Shown here: positions 4,496-37,807 of the stretch, one piece after another
How positions within the stretch are numbered: position 1 is the stretch's first letter
Layout of the letters: every line of letters begins with the position of its first letter
DNA from: Thiospirochaeta perfilievii
GTDB lineage: Bacteria; Spirochaetota; Spirochaetia; DSM-2461
Assembly: GCF_008329945.1 (NCBI RefSeq)
Contig: NZ_CP035807.1
Location: forward strand, 434,001-498,000
Length of the DNA: 64,000 bases
Direction: 5' to 3'
The notes under the pieces: generated by a model
The model's database searches: none
What the model was told of the DNA's origin: nothing
What the model saw: the letters and a program-made list of their open reading frames with translations, nothing else
Position numbers and translations under genes: made by a program

Positions 4496-4515
4496 ACCTC
4501 CAGTTTCCTGGAGGT
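4496..4515 (-). terminator. Hairpin downstream of the electron-transfer operon
   Basis: An eight-base-pair stem ACCTCCAG/CTGGAGGT with a TTTC loop lies just past the stop of the last minus-strand gene. On the minus strand it is followed by a short T-rich stretch. It probably ends the 9920-4525 operon and may also stop readthrough from the TSUP gene. Confidence 0.6.
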
Positions 4516-4524
4516 ATTAAAAAA

Positions 4525-5058
4525 TTATTTTACAGATTTGTTTCCAACTAATTTAGCTGTTTCATCCATTGTAAATGCATCTAATTGAGCTTGAGTAGAA
4601 AAGTAAATATCACCTTCAACTGTTGAAGATTTATCTAAAGAAAAACCATCAGCCTCTACGTAAATATCACCTTTAAAAGTACCACCTGTGATTCTAAAGT
4701 TAGGACTTTTAACAATCATTTTTGGTGCAGTTACAGTGTACTGCTCAGTAATTACACGATTTTCATCTTGAGTATAAAGTGCTAACTTTCTATCAACTAC
4801 ATCTCTGTTAGTAAATTCACCCTCAACAACTAGAGTTTCGTTAACTACTACATCGTTTAATGTTGCTGCTAACCAAGCTCCATCTGCAGATACAGCTTTT
4901 AATAAAGCTTCGCCATTGTCAACAATAGATGCTGTTGTAACAACATCAGCTTCTTTTACTTCCGCAACAACTTTAGCTTCTTCAGCTTTTTTAGAACAAC
5001 CTGTGAATGCTAATGATACAACTGCAATAGCAACCATTAAAAAAATGTTTTTTTTCAT
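4525..5058 (-). CDS. Lipoprotein with beta-helix-like tail, last gene of the electron-transfer operon
   Basis: This 177-residue protein has a lipoprotein signal ending LAFTGC, so Cys21 would be lipidated. After an alanine/lysine-rich linker come alternating short strands, including TVTAPKMIVKSPNFRITGG, FKGDIYVEADG and VEGDIYFSTQA. This pattern resembles a small right-handed beta-helix. A good ribosome site (AAGGAGAG) precedes it. It sits 43 bases after the prenyltransferase gene. In the comparable Listeria locus the lipoprotein (PplA) carries FMN on a threonine, but I see no obvious S/T-G-A-T flavinylation motif here, so it is not a PplA equivalent by sequence. Function unknown. Confidence 0.8.
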   Translation of the reverse strand: MKKNIFLMVAIAVVSLAFTGCSKKAEEAKVVAEVKEADVVTTASIVDNGEALLKAVSADGAWLAATLNDVVVNETLVVEGEFTNRDVVDRKLALYTQDENRVITEQYTVTAPKMIVKSPNFRITGGTFKGDIYVEADGFSLDKSSTVEGDIYFSTQAQLDAFTMDETAKLVGNKSVK

Positions 5059-5101
5059 TTCTCTCTCCTTAATATAATAAGTATATCTCTATACTAATTT
5101 T

Positions 5102-6046
5102 CTAAACAAAAAAGCTGATAATAAATGAACCAGCCCATAAAACTCCAAAAACTAAGAGGTTTTTAACTGCTACGATAAAGGTTTCAGCCTTGATTTGAAC
5201 ACTTAAAAAAACTTTTATGTTTTTATATATTGGAATTGCTGCAATTAAAACCAGATAATTTTCAACTGGTAATATTTTAAAAACAACCCCTATAATTACA
5301 ACTATAAATGGTAAAATATTTAATAATACATATATCAATAGAGAGTTTTTTTTACCTATATAATATGGTAATGTATATCTCCTATTAATCACATCATCAT
5401 CTAAGTCACAAATATTATTTGCCAACATGATATTAGATATTAAAAATATAAGAGGCAGCGATATAAAAAATATAGATAACATCTCTTCTAAATTTACATT
5501 TAAGCTTAACATTAAACTACTTAAATCAGCGCTAATAATATTAGTATCAAAGACCTGTATATAAACCGTAAGAAAGAGTATTAATCCTCCCATTACAACA
5601 CCAGAGAATAACTCTCCAAAGGGTGTTCTTGAAATAGGGATAGGACCATATGAGTAAGTTACACCTATGGCAAAACTTAAAATCCCTACAAATAGAACAA
5701 CCAGATCAGTAATTAAAAAGAGGATTATCCCTAAAAAAGAACCAAGAATAAGCAGTGTAATTATTGTTACTAACGCTGCTTTTTCACTAATACCATCTCT
5801 AACCATTGCATTGTGGATTTCATAGTTGTAGCCATCCTTCTTAATAGCTTTTTTATAATCCATAAAATTATTTATAGCTGTAGTAGCTAAGTCAATACAT
5901 AACAGACTAACAAAAAATATTAAAAAAACTAAGATATCAAATCTACCGTATCGATGAAGTGTAAACAGCGTTCCAATAAGTAGTGGAAACAGACTTGCTA
6001 CTTTAGTTTGTATCTCTACAAGTTTAAAAAATGATTTTAAATTCAT
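5102..6046 (-). CDS. menA: UbiA/MenA-type prenyltransferase (demethylmenaquinone synthesis)
   Basis: This 314-residue polytopic membrane enzyme would attach a polyprenyl tail to 1,4-dihydroxy-2-naphthoate. The first UbiA motif is NNFMDYKKAIKKDG (about residue 60) and the second Asp-rich motif is NNICDLDDDVINRR (about 210). About eight hydrophobic segments surround them. It lies 8 bases after the polyprenyl synthase gene, in one operon with NDH-2 and ApbE. No other menaquinone genes are nearby, so this may be a dedicated second copy (DmkA-like) making a separate quinone for this pathway. The gene symbol is by family, not by proven function. Confidence 0.86.
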   Translation of the reverse strand: MNLKSFFKLVEIQTKVASLFPLLIGTLFTLHRYGRFDILVFLIFFVSLLCIDLATTAINNFMDYKKAIKKDGYNYEIHNAMVRDGISEKAALVTIITLLILGSFLGIILFLITDLVVLFVGILSFAIGVTYSYGPIPISRTPFGELFSGVVMGGLILFLTVYIQVFDTNIISADLSSLMLSLNVNLEEMLSIFFISLPLIFLISNIMLANNICDLDDDVINRRYTLPYYIGKKNSLLIYVLLNILPFIVVIIGVVFKILPVENYLVLIAAIPIYKNIKVFLSVQIKAETFIVAVKNLLVFGVLWAGSFIISFFV

Positions 6047-6054
6047 TAAAACTC

Positions 6055-7035
6055 CTATTTAACCCTATCTATAAGCCTTGGCAAAAGCTCCATAAGAAGG
6101 TCATAACCACTATTTTTTGGAAGCCTATTAATAACTTGTAATGCTCTATCATGATACCTAATGGCTAAATTTCTACACTTCTCTATAGCACCTGATTTTT
6201 TTATTAGTAAAATTACTTGTTGTATATTATTCTCGTCTATACCACAACTAAATATCTCTCTAATTGAATCTTTATACTCAGATTCATCATTTAGTGCAAA
6301 TATCACAGGAAGACAGTAGTAACCCTTTAAAATATCAGATCTTAAATCCTTACCTACCTCTTCCTCGTCACCTATAAAATCTAGTAAATCATCAACTATT
6401 TGGAAAGCCATCCCTAGTTGATAACCAGCATGTGCTAACCGTTTTATTGTTTTATCATCAGCTTTTGTTATATAAGATCCAGCACTTAAAGAGATAGCAA
6501 AAAGTGCTGCTGTTTTACCAGAAACAACTCTTAAGTATCCAAAAAGAGAGGTATTCATATTATACCTATTTTTAAACTGTAAAATCTCTCCAATACAAAT
6601 TCTACTAACAACTTTTGCTAGGGCAATAGCCAACTCTTTTGGGACGTTAAGCTCTGTTAATAGTAAAAAACATTTACTTAATAGATAGTCCCCCATATAA
6701 ATAGCATACTCCTTAGAGTATTTAGACTGAATAGACTCTTTACCTCTACGCAGTTTTGCTTCATCTATAACATCATCGTGGAGTAGCGTTGCTACATGTA
6801 GGGTTTCAATTGCTGTTGCAATATCAACTAAATCATCACCCTTTTTTTTGTATAATTTACCAAACCTGCTACCTATCAATAATAAAATGGGGCGTAACAT
6901 CTTACCCCCATCCTCTAATAAATAATCCAAAGATTCATTAAAGTAGTTATTACCACTTTTCAAATCTTTTTGTAACTTATCTTTAATAGCATTAAGTTGG
7001 TTATTTAGGGTTTTATCCTCAAACCAATCTAACAT
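6055..7035 (-). CDS. Long-chain trans-polyprenyl diphosphate synthase
   Basis: This 326-residue all-alpha isoprenyl synthase makes the C35-C45 tail for menaquinone from IPP. The first Asp-rich motif is LLHDDVIDEAKLRRG and the second is QIVDDLLDFIGDEEEVGKD. The small residues before the first motif agree with a long-chain enzyme. It lies between ndh and menA with gaps of 12 and 8 bases, giving a tail synthase plus prenyltransferase pair as in the dmkB/dmkA arrangement of Listeria. Equivalent names in other species would be hepT or ispB. I cannot judge the chain length. Confidence 0.92.
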   Translation of the reverse strand: MLDWFEDKTLNNQLNAIKDKLQKDLKSGNNYFNESLDYLLEDGGKMLRPILLLIGSRFGKLYKKKGDDLVDIATAIETLHVATLLHDDVIDEAKLRRGKESIQSKYSKEYAIYMGDYLLSKCFLLLTELNVPKELAIALAKVVSRICIGEILQFKNRYNMNTSLFGYLRVVSGKTAALFAISLSAGSYITKADDKTIKRLAHAGYQLGMAFQIVDDLLDFIGDEEEVGKDLRSDILKGYYCLPVIFALNDESEYKDSIREIFSCGIDENNIQQVILLIKKSGAIEKCRNLAIRYHDRALQVINRLPKNSGYDLLMELLPRLIDRVK

Positions 7036-7047
7036 AGAACCTCATTT

Positions 7048-8883
7048 TTATAAGTCAGTAAATAAATACCATTTTTTAACAAACTTAAGTTTTCTCCATC
7101 TTTTATTTAGGAATGGAAGAACATAATAATCTAAACCAAATGTTGAACCACTACCACCTATCATAGCAATACCACCAGCGATAAACCATAACATCTCAAA
7201 CGGAGCCATTCCTGAAGCCCAAATCATAATTCCCATAACTACCGAAATAATTGATGCTAAAGCTGTAAAAAGTCCACCTAAAAGACATAAACCAACAACA
7301 ATCTCTGCTAGAACCATTCCTGTTTGGAATATAACAGCCATAAATGTAAATTCACCAGTAGAAGTATAGAATATCAAGTTCATTGACCAATCAACAATAC
7401 TAGTAATAAATTCTGGTACAGCTAAGGCTTTTACAGCTTCTGTTGCAGCTTCTGAAGTAGCACCAGTTACATCAACCTTTGAGGCTAACAGAAAAATATA
7501 AGTTGGATCAGCAACTATTTTTATTAACTTCTCAATACCCTCATATAACCACATTCCACCTAAAAACATTCTAAATGGAACTAACCAAAAATTCGGTGAT
7601 CGTTTAGCAAAATGTCCACCAAGAAAGCTTCTTCTATCTTCAACATGGAAAAATTCATACATCCAGTATTTCCACAACTTATGGAATCCAGCAACCTCAA
7701 CAAAGTAGATAAAGTTGACAAAATGTTTAATAAACATAGCTAAGAAACCAGAAAATACAAACTCTCTTTTAGTTGTATTAATCTGAGCAACTCCATATTT
7801 ACCACCAATACTAACCATGGCACCATGAAATGCAGGTTTATATGATTTCAACTCTTTTTCTTTAATTGTTGCTTCAATATTATTTGCAACTGTTGCAGAG
7901 GAGTGTTCTGCATTTTCAACCATCTGTGGAACAGGTTTATCACTACCCTCTGGGATATAAAATATATTATCACCTACAACAAAAACATCTTCTTTGTTTT
8001 TTGCCCGTAAAAACTCATCAGTTTGAACACGATTTCTAGCCAGGATCTCAAGATTATCATCTTCTATAGAACCAATAATATCTGAACCTTCAACACCTGC
8101 TGCCCATATTACAGTATTAGTTTCGATTTTACCCTTTCCGTCTATTTCAATACAGTCTTTAGTAACATCTTTGACACCAGAATTAAGCATGATTTCAACA
8201 TTCATCTTTTCAAGTCGTTTAGTTGTTTTATCAATAAGTTTAGGGTGGAAATTTGGAAGAACTTTTGGAAGTAAATCTGCAACTATCATTCTAACCTCAT
8301 TCTCTGAAATATTAAATGTATGACAAAGTCTCTCTCGCCACTCAGCTAATTCACCAATCATTTCGATTCCAGTAAATCCACAACCAATTACAACAAAAGT
8401 TAATAGTCTTTTCCTAATAAAAGGGTCTGTTTCTACACTAGCTTTTCCAAAAACTTCCCACATATGGTGTTTAATTTTTACAGCATCTTCATAGGACCAT
8501 AGAGGGAAAGCGTGCTCTTCTGCACCTTTATTACCCCAGAAAGTAGGTTTTGAACCAGTACCTAATACTAAATAGTCATATTTTGTACATGTAACACGGC
8601 CCTCAAGAACTTTCTTATCAAAATCAATTGAATGGATATCATCTAAAATTACATCAACGTTTCTACCTGCAAATATCTTATCGAAGTTTATTCTAACCCC
8701 ATCCTCAGGTATTCTTCCTGCTGCAACCTCATGTAGCTCTGTTAGCATAGTATGATAAGTATTTTTATCAATTAAAGTAATTTTAACTTCTTCACTCTTC
8801 TTAAATTTTTTCGCTAGCTTTTTAGCGGTGAGTACACCTCCGTAACCACCACCTAGGACTACAATATGTTTTGCTTTATCCAT
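7048..8883 (-). CDS. ndh: Type II NADH dehydrogenase with C-terminal membrane (DoxX-like) domain
   Basis: This 611-residue protein is a two-domain flavoenzyme. The FAD-binding site GGGYGGVLTAKKLA is at about residues 11-24, the NAD site VIGCGFTGIEMIGELAEW at about 170, and the FAD-closing VFVVGDNIF near 300. After about residue 420 it carries four hydrophobic helices resembling DoxX, where ordinary NDH-2 has only about 400 residues and an amphipathic tail. It would pass electrons from NADH to quinone without pumping protons. The membrane extension, with the quinone genes and ApbE beside it, is the same combination seen in Ndh2 of the Listeria extracellular electron transfer locus. Confidence 0.9.
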   Translation of the reverse strand: MDKAKHIVVLGGGYGGVLTAKKLAKKFKKSEEVKITLIDKNTYHTMLTELHEVAAGRIPEDGVRINFDKIFAGRNVDVILDDIHSIDFDKKVLEGRVTCTKYDYLVLGTGSKPTFWGNKGAEEHAFPLWSYEDAVKIKHHMWEVFGKASVETDPFIRKRLLTFVVIGCGFTGIEMIGELAEWRERLCHTFNISENEVRMIVADLLPKVLPNFHPKLIDKTTKRLEKMNVEIMLNSGVKDVTKDCIEIDGKGKIETNTVIWAAGVEGSDIIGSIEDDNLEILARNRVQTDEFLRAKNKEDVFVVGDNIFYIPEGSDKPVPQMVENAEHSSATVANNIEATIKEKELKSYKPAFHGAMVSIGGKYGVAQINTTKREFVFSGFLAMFIKHFVNFIYFVEVAGFHKLWKYWMYEFFHVEDRRSFLGGHFAKRSPNFWLVPFRMFLGGMWLYEGIEKLIKIVADPTYIFLLASKVDVTGATSEAATEAVKALAVPEFITSIVDWSMNLIFYTSTGEFTFMAVIFQTGMVLAEIVVGLCLLGGLFTALASIISVVMGIMIWASGMAPFEMLWFIAGGIAMIGGSGSTFGLDYYVLPFLNKRWRKLKFVKKWYLFTDL

Positions 8884-8900
8884 TTTGACTTCTCCCTTTA

Positions 8901-9920
8901 CTATTTAAATACTAGACTAAAACTAGTATTTATCAATTTAAAATTCTCTTTCATTTCCTTAGGTAGATAAATTTTAGAATCCTTGGTTATATATATAACA
9001 TATACTCCGCCAATTTTTTTCGCTAATTCTAGACCACTATCTATATCCATCTGAAAAAATATAGTTGACAGAGCATCCCCATCAATCCCCTTATCTGTAA
9101 TAACTGTTACAGAAGATACATCAGTTACAGCTGGAAACCCACTAACTCTATTAATAATATGATGGTATCTCTTACCATCAACTTCAAAATATCTCTCGTA
9201 ATCACCACTTGAAATTATTGATTTATTTTTTAGCTCAATGGTACCTAGATAAGAGTTCCTATTATCAAAAGGATTTTGTATTCCCACAATAAAATCACTA
9301 CCATTTGGTTTATTACCAATTAACTTTACATTACCACCTAAATTAATTATGCCACTATCAACACCATTTTGCACTAAATATTCTGCAACAATATCTGCAG
9401 CATACCCCTTAGCAATACCTCCAAGGTCTATAGACATACCCTTATCCATGGATATGGAGTTTTGATCTATTTTGATATTTTTATAATTAACTAAAGGAAT
9501 TCTCTTATTAATATCCTTAATATCAGGAACTTCAAAACCACCACTTCCTATTTTCCATAATTTAACAAGTGGGCCTATAGAAATATCAAAGAGACCATTT
9601 GATAAGTCTCCATAATATAGTCCTTTTTTTATTACACTTAAAGTTGAATTTGTTAACTCTACTGGAGATATTCCAGCGTTTAAGTTTATTTGGGAGACAT
9701 CACTACTATCGATATTAACTGACATCTTCTTTTCTATATCTAACAATATATCAAATGATCCATCTAATAATTCTCTACTATTATCCGCCCAAATATTAAT
9801 TGTTACAAATGTACCTAAAATAAACTTTGTATCACTTACAGGCTTATTGTTAACATCTTTTTTTTCACAACCAAGGAGTAAAAAAATGGTTATAAATGTA
9901 TATATCTTAATTAATCTCAT
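8901..9920 (-). CDS. apbE: FAD:protein FMN transferase, lipoprotein
   Basis: This 339-residue ApbE-family protein attaches FMN covalently to threonines of exported redox proteins. A lipoprotein signal ends LLLGC (Cys18), placing it outside the inner membrane. Family motifs are DIEKKMS near residue 60, IDLGGIAKGYA (about 164-174), INLGGNV (about 192) and GIDGDALSTIFF (278-289), whose Asp282 and Thr286 match the metal-binding pair of ApbE. The usual HIxDPxTG reads HHIINRVSG (253-261), so the aspartate is Asn and the proline Arg. This is an unusual variant. It is the first gene of the five-gene operon and has a strong promoter upstream. Confidence 0.9.
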   Translation of the reverse strand: MRLIKIYTFITIFLLLGCEKKDVNNKPVSDTKFILGTFVTINIWADNSRELLDGSFDILLDIEKKMSVNIDSSDVSQINLNAGISPVELTNSTLSVIKKGLYYGDLSNGLFDISIGPLVKLWKIGSGGFEVPDIKDINKRIPLVNYKNIKIDQNSISMDKGMSIDLGGIAKGYAADIVAEYLVQNGVDSGIINLGGNVKLIGNKPNGSDFIVGIQNPFDNRNSYLGTIELKNKSIISSGDYERYFEVDGKRYHHIINRVSGFPAVTDVSSVTVITDKGIDGDALSTIFFQMDIDSGLELAKKIGGVYVIYITKDSKIYLPKEMKENFKLINTSFSLVFK

Positions 9921-9944: not shown

Positions 9945-9973
9945 AGTATACTATGTTAAGAATCTATTGTCAC
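9945..9973 (-). promoter_or_regulatory. Sigma-70-type promoter of the electron-transfer operon
   Basis: On the minus strand GTGACA (9968-9973) and TATACT (9945-9950) are separated by exactly 17 bases, each one base from consensus. The minus-10 ends 24 bases before the apbE start. It is the best-looking promoter in this part of the window and would drive all five genes to 4525. Confidence 0.65.
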
Positions 9974-27244: not shown

Positions 27245-27272
27245 AGAGTAGGATCAAAACTGATCCTACTCT
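27245..27272. terminator. Bidirectional hairpin between the transporter and the recQ fragment
   Basis: A perfect 11-base-pair inverted repeat (AGAGTAGGATC/GATCCTACTCT) with a six-base loop lies 7 bases after the transporter stop and overlaps the last codons of the convergent recQ fragment. Neither side has a strong T tract, so termination strength is uncertain. Confidence 0.55.
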
Positions 27273-28183
27273 AGAAAAGATCTTATCTCACTCATAAATA
27301 TATCACCATACTCTAATAGTTTTTTATTCCCTACTCCATTTACAAGTAAAAAGTCATCAGAAGTTTCAGGTTTTAAATTACTCATATCAGTTAATGTCTT
27401 ATCTGAGAAAACAACATATGGTGGAACGTTTTTCTCCCTAGCAATATCTAATCTTACCCTACGTAATCTTTCAAATAGTTCTTCATCCTTAGTTAAAGTT
27501 ATAGCTTCCCTACTTTTTTTACTCTTCTCAATCACAGGTTTAAACATAGAGGTTTTTATTCGTCCATATAGAAGATCTGTCCCCTTTTCAGATATAACTA
27601 AAGCGTTGTACCTTTCACTATCCTGAATTAGGCACTCTTGACCTAATAACTCATCTATTACTAAGTGCCAAAACTCTTTTGGCTTACTCTTACCTATACC
27701 AAAAGTCTTAATTTTATCATGTTCAAACTTTAAAATTTTACTACTCTTAGAACCTCTTACTACATCAATAGTATGATTTATTCCAAAATTTTGACCTGTT
27801 CTAGCAATAGCAGATAAAATCATCTGGGAGTCTACAGTTATATCAATTAACTCATTTTCGTTGTTACAAACATCACAATTATTACAGTTTCCTGGGTGTT
27901 CCTCTTCAAAATAACTTAAAAGTTGCTTTCTTCTGCAGACATTCCTTGAAGCATATCTAAGTATTTTATTAAGATTATGTCTAGACTTCTCCTGTTCATG
28001 AATATCCTCAATTTTATTAATAAAGTAGTTTATTTTAACACTATCACCTCGACTAAAAAGTAGTATACACTCTGAGTCTGATCCATCTCGACCTGCACGA
28101 CTGGTCTCTTGATAATACCCTTCAATATTTTTTGGTAAGTCTCCATGGATTACATACTTAATATTACTCTTATCAATACCCAT
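27266..28183 (-). pseudogene. Truncated recQ copy (end of helicase core, RQC and HRDC domains only)
   Basis: This 305-codon frame corresponds to the C-terminal half of the full recQ at 36026-37807. It starts at MGIDKSNIKY, so motifs I-IV with the ATP site are missing and it cannot be a helicase. Up to NLKP (about 272 residues) I count five amino-acid differences from the full copy, one of them Gly to Ser in the motif VI arginine-finger segment (ETSRAGRDG). The last 33 residues differ clearly. Zinc-binding cysteines (CNNCDVC) and the HRDC tail are intact. Either a recombination remnant or a separate RQC-HRDC protein; the first is more likely. Confidence 0.8.
27369..28183 (-). repeat. Direct repeat copy A (recQ segment, 815 bp)
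   Basis: This stretch aligns end to end with 36126-36940 in the same orientation, with equal length and only scattered substitutions. Similarity stops sharply at both ends. The pair brackets the 28184-36125 segment. Confidence 0.85.
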
Positions 28184-36025: not shown

Positions 36026-37807
36026 CTACAAATATTTTATAATTATTCCTAGGAATTGATCTCCGTAACTCTCCAGTTTCTTCTCTCCAACACCATTTAC
36101 TAATAAAAATTCTTCTGAGTTCCTAGGTTTTAAATTACTCATATCTGTTAAAGTCTTATCTGAGAAAACAACATATGGTGGAACGTTTTTCTCCTTAGCA
36201 ATATCTAATCTTACCCTTCGTAATCTTTCAAATAGTTCTTCATCCTTAGTTAAAGTTATAGCTTCCCTACTTTTTTTACTCTTCTCAATTACAGGTTTAA
36301 ACATAGTGGTTTTTATTCGTCCATATAGAAGATCTGTCCCCTTTTCAGATATAACTAAAGCGTTGTACCTTTCACTATCCTGAATTAGGCACTCTTGACC
36401 TAATAACTCATCTATTACTAAGTGCCAAAACTCTTTTGTTTTACTTTTACCTATACCAAAAGTCTTAATTTTATCATGTTCAAACTTTAAAATTTTACTA
36501 CTCTTAGAACCTCTTACTACATCAATAGTATGATTTATTCCAAACTTTTGACCTGTTCTAGCAATAGCAGATAAAATCATCTGGGAGTCTACAGTTATAT
36601 CAATTAACTCATTTTCGTTGTTACAAACATCACAATTATTACAGTTTCCTGGGTGTTCCTCTTCAAAATAACTTAAAAGTTGCTTTCTTCTGCAGACATT
36701 CCTTGAAGCATATCTAAGTATTTTATTAAGATTATGTCTAGACTTCTCCTGTTCATGAATATCCTCAATTTTATTAATAAAGTAGTTTATTTTAACACTA
36801 TCACCTCGACTAAAAAGTAGTATACACTCTGAGTCTGATCCATCTCGACCTGCACGACCGGTCTCTTGATAATACCCTTCAATATTTTTTGGTAAGTCTC
36901 CATGGATTACATACTTAATATTACTCTTATCAATGCCCATTCCAAATGCAATTGTTGCAACAATGACATCGGTTTCATCACAGTTAAATTTTTCTTGATT
37001 CCCTGTTCTTACTCTCTCTTCTAAACCGGCATGATATGGAAGTGCTTTTATTCCATTAGCAACAAGGAAAGCTGCGGTTTTCTCTACATCATTTCTTGAT
37101 GTTCTATAAATTATACCAGCTTTGCCGACTCTATCCTTTGTAAGTTTAAGCAGTTGATCTTTTGTTTTTGATTTTCTTACAACCCTATAGGATAACTCAG
37201 GTCTATCAAATGAAGCCCTTGTTATAAAAGGTCTAATTAGATCTAGCTTATAAATAATATCCGATTGAACCTGTTTAGTCGCGGTGGCTGTAAAAGCCGC
37301 AATTACTGTATTTGGGAAAAACTTCCTTATATTAGTAAGGGATAAATAGTCAGGTCGAAAATCATGCCCCCAGTCTGATAAACAATGGGCTTCATCAATT
37401 GCAAAAAGTGATATATTTAACTGACTTAGAGTCTGAATAAATGTTGTTAGAGCAAATCTCTCTGGTGAGATATATAAAAGTTTTATCTTATTTTTTTGTA
37501 AATCCCTATATATCTGAATAGTTTTATCTTTATCAAGGGAACTATTTATATATGCTGCAGATATTCCAATTTGTACAGCAGAATCAACCTGATCCTTCAT
37601 TAAAGCTATTAATGGACTAACAACTACTGTAATCCCTGGTAATAAAATTGAGGGTAGTTGATAACAGAGAGATTTACCTCCCCCTGTTGGCATTGCAGCA
37701 AAAACATCCCTACCATCTAATATAGAAGAGACAATTGCTTCTTGATTTTTTTTAAAGGATGAAAATCCAAATACTGACTGTAATGTATTAAAAACTCTAT
37801 TATTCAC
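36026..37807 (-). CDS. recQ: ATP-dependent DNA helicase RecQ
   Basis: This 593-residue protein is a full superfamily 2 RecQ: motif 0 FKKNQEAIV, Walker A MPTGGGKSLCYQLP, DEAH box IDEAHCLSDWGHDF, motif III AFTATAT and motif VI QETGRAGRDG. The zinc-binding cysteines (CNNCDVC region, about 380-400), the RQC winged helix and a C-terminal HRDC domain (about 515-590) follow. It unwinds DNA in recombination and fork repair. A partial copy lies 8 kb to the left in the same orientation. The last 33 residues differ between the two copies while the middle is almost identical. Confidence 0.95.
   Translation of the reverse strand: MNNRVFNTLQSVFGFSSFKKNQEAIVSSILDGRDVFAAMPTGGGKSLCYQLPSILLPGITVVVSPLIALMKDQVDSAVQIGISAAYINSSLDKDKTIQIYRDLQKNKIKLLYISPERFALTTFIQTLSQLNISLFAIDEAHCLSDWGHDFRPDYLSLTNIRKFFPNTVIAAFTATATKQVQSDIIYKLDLIRPFITRASFDRPELSYRVVRKSKTKDQLLKLTKDRVGKAGIIYRTSRNDVEKTAAFLVANGIKALPYHAGLEERVRTGNQEKFNCDETDVIVATIAFGMGIDKSNIKYVIHGDLPKNIEGYYQETGRAGRDGSDSECILLFSRGDSVKINYFINKIEDIHEQEKSRHNLNKILRYASRNVCRRKQLLSYFEEEHPGNCNNCDVCNNENELIDITVDSQMILSAIARTGQKFGINHTIDVVRGSKSSKILKFEHDKIKTFGIGKSKTKEFWHLVIDELLGQECLIQDSERYNALVISEKGTDLLYGRIKTTMFKPVIEKSKKSREAITLTKDEELFERLRRVRLDIAKEKNVPPYVVFSDKTLTDMSNLKPRNSEEFLLVNGVGEKKLESYGDQFLGIIIKYL
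36126..36940 (-). repeat. Direct repeat copy B (recQ segment, 815 bp)
   Basis: Same length and orientation as 27369-28183, lying inside the intact recQ gene. Recombination between the two would excise the roughly 8.8 kb between them as a circle and leave one recQ. Confidence 0.85.

Follow-up and report, generated by a model that had tools for sequence, protein, structure and literature searches.

A FLEET-like operon with a putative clostridial NADH-to-quinone core in the spirochaete Thiospirochaeta perfilievii

Listeria-type loci for extracellular electron transfer (EET), also termed flavin-based extracellular electron transfer (FLEET), are known in Firmicutes. The locus of Listeria monocytogenes consists of ndh2, dmkA, dmkB, fmnB, pplA, eetA, eetB and fmnA. 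A comparative study of 2019 lists a Spirochaete with a cad(PplA)-apbE-NDH2-prenyl module (PMC7074142), and a 2024 paper described genes for flavin-based EET in Effluviviacota and claimed them as the first such set outside Gram-positives (PMC11323493). A literature search, with most subscription journals outside its scope, found no publication on FLEET-like loci across Spirochaetia. Here we describe a related operon of T. perfilievii P, located in a stretch of 64,000 nucleotides (the window; positions 434,001 to 498,000 of contig NZ_CP035807.1), and compare it across 26 Spirochaetia genomes, that is, T. perfilievii and 25 relatives. The assembly comprises 3,700,583 bases in two contigs (3,667,739 and 32,844), and the genome has been reported as closed, with chromosome CP035807 and plasmid CP035808 (PMC7380536). 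Absences from this genome are therefore meaningful.

The operon consists of five adjacent, co-oriented genes that run along the minus strand from 9920 to 4525 in the order apbE, ndh2, polyprenyl synthase (pps), menA and lipoprotein, separated by gaps of 17, 12, 8 and 43 nt. All five lie at the coordinates given in the original prediction, and family searches agree with its gene names. The features are as follows.

9945..9973, minus strand: promoter-like GTGACA-N17-TATACT upstream of apbE; 10/12 consensus match, weak
8901..9920, minus strand: apbE, exported lipoprotein FAD:protein FMN transferase, FmnB-like (PF02424, 1.2e-82)
7048..8883, minus strand: ndh2, type II NADH:quinone oxidoreductase of 611 aa, probably of clostridial origin (Pyr_redox_2, 6e-36)
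7048..7611, minus strand: membrane domain of four helices at the C terminus of NDH-2, DoxX/DoxD-like
6055..7035, minus strand: long-chain polyprenyl diphosphate synthase, DmkB/HepT-like (polyprenyl_synt, 1e-64; HepT model, 4e-78, below its cut-off)
5102..6046, minus strand: menA/dmkA, 1,4-dihydroxy-2-naphthoate (DHNA) polyprenyltransferase (NF004752, 1.8e-97, over cut-off)
4525..5058, minus strand: lipoprotein with a parallel beta-helix domain, at a position that may be occupied by pplA in relatives
4927..4947, minus strand: conserved DVVTTAS, residues 38-44 of the lipoprotein, similar to the flavinylation motif DxxS/TGAS/T but with Thr at the Gly position
4496..4515, minus strand: intrinsic terminator hairpin 3' of the lipoprotein gene, at the operon end (fold z -3.3)

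One operon with a strong promoter had been proposed. The genes are adjacent and co-oriented and a terminator follows the last; the strength of the promoter is not borne out, as the region in which the 10/12 match lies holds 33 promoter-like sites against 30.5 in shuffled sequences, which is no excess. Support is better for the terminator hairpin (4515-4496) than for the promoter-like site at 9973-9945. Elsewhere in the window, an open reading frame at 27266-28183 repeats, nearly identically, the C-terminal half of a recQ-like helicase gene (36026-37807) 8 kb away.

For the extra membrane part of NDH-2 (residues about 425-611), helix prediction gave four long helices, in line with the original prediction. 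This tail weakly matches DoxD in 16/22 and DoxX in 14/22 aligned homologues, and a Foldseek search against the PDB gave no confident match for it. Tail-bearing NDH-2 is common in Spirochaetia, with a polyprenyl synthase gene following it in nearly every case. The T. perfilievii copy has no other close homologue in its genome. Leaving aside G001, G004 and G009, its closest matches are in Clostridia, the nearest of which share 64-66% identity with it, against 35-44% for most other Spirochaetia. In a tree of 60 NDH-2 proteins it nested among Clostridia with starred support, and 21 other Spirochaetia formed a clade of their own. A single Spirochaetia clade was rejected (p-AU 2e-11), the group tested being taxonomic but the test made after the similarity was noticed. 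The polyprenyl synthase tree recovered the same 10-row clade with Clostridia (support 98*), and MenA was placed beside Petrocella (support 82). With ndh2 nested in Clostridia and the polyprenyl synthase tree in accord, the simplest reading would be that ndh2-pps-menA came from Clostridia by horizontal transfer. A joint transfer of apbE was considered and not retained: the ApbE tree gave no resolved placement, and apbE need not share this origin. In the nearest Clostridia (L157, L159, L165), a gene for a single-FMN lipoprotein along with sensor-kinase-like and response-regulator-like genes lies between pps and menA.

Among solved structures, the operon ApbE best matched Listeria FmnB (7esa, 2.1e-72), with T. 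pallidum ApbE at 1.2e-45. EetA corresponds to NusG_II, and EetB to PF07456 as defined in PMC9973259. Both had been predicted to be missing, yet both are encoded at C1:737.7-738.6 kb, outside the operon, and together with a second apbE beside them span C1:736.7-738.6 kb. In Spirochaetia relatives, ndh2-dmkB loci come with apbE, EetA, EetB and FMN_bind lipoproteins of the PplA-like kind. Such PplA-like lipoproteins, each with at least two FMN_bind domains, occur in 17/26 Spirochaetia genomes, often adjoining ndh2; their scores against the NCBIfam PplA model stay under its cut-off. One PplA-like protein (L043:3986-4849) has DVLTSAT as its first flavinylation site, with Ser for Gly, a change similar to that in the operon lipoprotein. 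A genome-wide search found no PplA-type protein in T. perfilievii, and no PplA-like lipoprotein was found in two incomplete genomes of its genus or in G004. The proposed genome search for FMN_bind proteins yielded three only. Two are RnfG; the third, an exported protein of 136 aa, is encoded outside the operon and adjoins the gene of a NapH-like Fe-S membrane protein, a pair also found in G001 and G018. The exported flavoprotein that defines FLEET was thus not recovered in its PplA form, and because PplA is absent, the locus, judged by its genes, is FLEET-like and not FLEET proper.

A search of the genome for a second menA returned only a 167-aa, half-length fragment at C1:616.6 kb, leaving the operon menA as the only full-length UbiA-family gene found. 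The truncated MenA-like UbiA gene (L061:16517-17020) adjoins an ABC transporter whose binding protein is of the SsuA/NMT1 type. None of the 26 genomes (0/26) matched the MenD or MenB model above the cut-off, with positive controls matched; the MenD matches seen across all genomes were to other thiamine-diphosphate enzymes, the best in T. perfilievii scoring 59 bits against a cut-off of 244. MqnA was likewise undetected in T. perfilievii, with positive controls found, and searches for the enzymes of a de novo menaquinone route, classical (MenD and MenB) or futalosine (MqnA), were therefore negative for this genome. The original prediction that the cell makes a dedicated quinone accordingly stands for the capacity to prenylate a naphthoate and fails for synthesis of the ring. 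With MenB, MenD and MqnA undetected, the naphthoquinone ring is probably acquired. Lactiplantibacillus plantarum performs EET with exogenous DHNA, as measured (PMC10746273), and by this analogy T. perfilievii probably takes a naphthoate or naphthoquinone precursor from outside; another, novel route to the ring is conceivable. Our most robust results are that ndh2 was acquired horizontally, that PplA is absent and that no DHNA synthesis was detected.

In the lipoprotein, a disordered linker joins the lipobox to a parallel beta-helix, and the pLDDT of the predicted structure exceeds 90 for most of residues 51-177. Structural alignment gave Z 12.1 to the L. reuteri surface protein (SRRP) and Z 8.0 to bactofilin BacA, and Foldseek found no confident match in the PDB. 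Assignment to the bactofilins was rejected: Pfam and NCBIfam searches returned a sub-threshold match only (PF04519, 16.5 bits versus a cut-off of 27.9), and the beta-helix alone is in common. Pfam, NCBIfam and profile comparison also excluded a PplA/FMN_bind protein, with likeness limited to the signal peptide; as had been stated earlier of an obvious FMN-binding motif, no FMN_bind domain is present. Homologues lie beside ndh2 in T. perfilievii, G001, L160, four Acetobacterium-like loci, L218 and L235, and about 3 kb from ndh2 in L199. A search of 80 genomes found about 36 lipoprotein genes in 28 of them, about 10 near ndh2 and the rest mostly solitary, a count biased upward by a sample that took in every locus already known with the lipoprotein. 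Roughly 0.1 gene near ndh2 was expected under random placement, which makes the family enriched near ndh2; with most copies solitary, it is not specific to ndh2, and an exclusive partnership is discounted. The predominance of solitary homologues also weakens the view of a dedicated EET component, and both PplA and the lipoprotein occur in G005 and G028, so that the two are not mutually exclusive per genome. Large proteins in which the beta-helix lipoprotein domain is repeated several times in tandem are encoded at G070:C279:6800-8251 and G073:C5:171302-172609 (open frames of 738 and 621 aa).

By a slight balance of probability, we favor the operon being a FLEET-type NADH-to-quinone module of clostridial origin, without PplA, for which the NapH-like/FMN_bind pair and cytochrome bd would be the probable sinks. 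A naphthoquinone precursor such as DHNA would be imported from neighbouring cells, and polyprenyl synthase and MenA would add a lipid tail to yield demethylmenaquinone. NDH-2, held at the membrane by its DoxX-like tail, would reduce this quinone with NADH without ion pumping, and the quinol would pass its electrons to any sink at hand. PplA would have been lost from T. perfilievii or never acquired, leaving two probable sinks: the NapH-like Fe-S protein paired with the exported FMN_bind protein, and cytochrome bd when oxygen is present. The operon ApbE, using FAD exported by EetB, would flavinylate exported FMN_bind and Rnf proteins, and the cell, a fermentative one, would benefit from quicker NAD+ recycling. 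Of the local candidates for an outward electron route, the NapH-like/FMN_bind pair is the best, by analogy with flavinylated systems in which a NapH-like Fe-S membrane protein is encoded next to an exported FMN_bind gene (PMC8238504). Electron export is a plausible, predicted function of the T. perfilievii operon.

Cytochrome bd makes ordinary quinol oxidation a serious rival to the predicted delivery of NADH electrons to an exported flavoprotein. NDH-2 would then feed cytochrome bd by plain quinone respiration for oxygen removal, with no EET and with ApbE serving Rnf complexes only. The cytochrome bd subunit genes, found in none of the 25 other Spirochaetia genomes searched, lie directly upstream of an rnfD-G-E-A run; T. 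perfilievii is called oxygen-tolerant in the title of its species description, as cited in PMC7380536; and the lack of PplA points the same way. However, cytochrome bd is not a general partner of ndh2-pps-menA, because G004 and G009 (95% and 99% complete) have the set without it, in G009 with a PplA-like gene adjoining, and T. perfilievii itself has the NapH-like/FMN_bind pair. Plain menaquinone respiration had originally been reserved for a genome with no other menA or ndh and no exported flavinylated protein; menA is indeed the only full-length copy and ndh2 the only close one, but exported flavinylatable proteins exist. We consider this explanation rather unlikely, if well short of negligible. 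Far less probable is a sulfur-linked chain in which the quinol feeds thiosulfate or sulfur reduction and the tail is a docking or quinone site. In its favor are the resemblance of the tail to DoxD/DoxX, a gene for a TauE/SafE-type exporter that adjoins the operon, and the thiosulfate and sulfur reduction reported for T. perfilievii in a title cited in PMC7380536, but many Firmicutes NDH-2 loci with PplA have the same tail, DoxX-type domains are widespread and the operon has no sulfur reductase gene.

The beta-helix lipoprotein might instead be the exported electron acceptor that replaces PplA, with ApbE placing FMN on Ser44 of DVVTTAS despite the change of Gly to Thr. D-x-x-[ST]-[ST]-A-S is conserved in nearly all homologues, two copies having Asn in place of Asp, and in T. 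perfilievii it stands at the end of the disordered linker following the lipobox. The flavinylation motif is D-x-x-[ST]-G-A-[ST]; seven-residue tags near a terminus suffice for flavinylation, and Gly-to-Ala keeps about half of the modification (PMC12052999). The position beside ndh2 in several lineages is also in keeping with an acceptor. Against this, Gly is missing from every copy, the FMN_bind fold is lacking, similarity to the PplA profile stops at the signal peptide and homologues elsewhere are mostly solitary; the Gly-less pattern occurs in about 2% of unrelated proteins (family members taken out) and in about 0.5% within the N-terminal stretch. We regard such an acceptor as improbable and this near-flavinylation motif, found post hoc, as a lead. 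Slightly less probable again is the wider proposal that the lipoprotein represents a novel type of substrate for ApbE, flavinylated at a Gly-less D-x-x-T-T-A-S, and substitutes for PplA as exported electron carrier in a quinone-dependent chain run on scavenged DHNA.

The cytochrome bd genes belong to a single run at L064:8210-13830 (C1 about 36.2-41.8 kb), in which rnfD-rnfG-rnfE-rnfA comes directly after cydA-cydB, along with a short rnfB-like gene of the Fe-S part only. No rnfC was seen in this run, where the bd oxidase is encoded along with a stripped Rnf core.

Collectively, these data suggest that many Spirochaetia, seen mainly as fermenters, hold NADH-quinone electron-export loci although none of the 26 genomes searched had a detected MenB or MenD, which would make these bacteria dependent on neighbours for the quinone precursor. 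T. perfilievii, as a cultured and fully sequenced type strain, is a directly testable case. A relaxed flavinylation motif may also lie hidden in the as yet unnamed family of lipoproteins found repeatedly next to ndh2.

As originally predicted, the operon is made up of Listeria-type EET components, namely NDH-2 with a membrane tail, a DHNA prenyltransferase (DmkA), a polyprenyl synthase (DmkB) and an FmnB-type ApbE, and EetA/EetB are present in the genome. Unlike Listeria, T. perfilievii lacks PplA, has EetA/EetB and the second ApbE about 300 kb from the operon, has a beta-helix lipoprotein in the operon and is a Gram-negative-type cell. L. plantarum similarly has FLEET-type genes without DHNA synthesis of its own, but with PplA and measured EET, whereas T. 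perfilievii lacks PplA and its EET is a prediction. The ndh2-dmkB loci of other Spirochaetia have the core genes in common, often with apbE and EetA/EetB; their NDH-2 is a separate clade, in contrast to the clostridial-type NDH-2 of T. perfilievii, whose genus is without PplA. The Clostridia MAG L160 (JAFGVN010000071.1) differs in its order, lipoprotein-apbE-ndh2-pps-menA, with the lipoprotein first rather than last and its domain duplicated, and its apbE is only 36% identical. Nonetheless, all five gene families are contiguous in L160 as in T. perfilievii, with ndh2 63% and the lipoprotein 57% identical.
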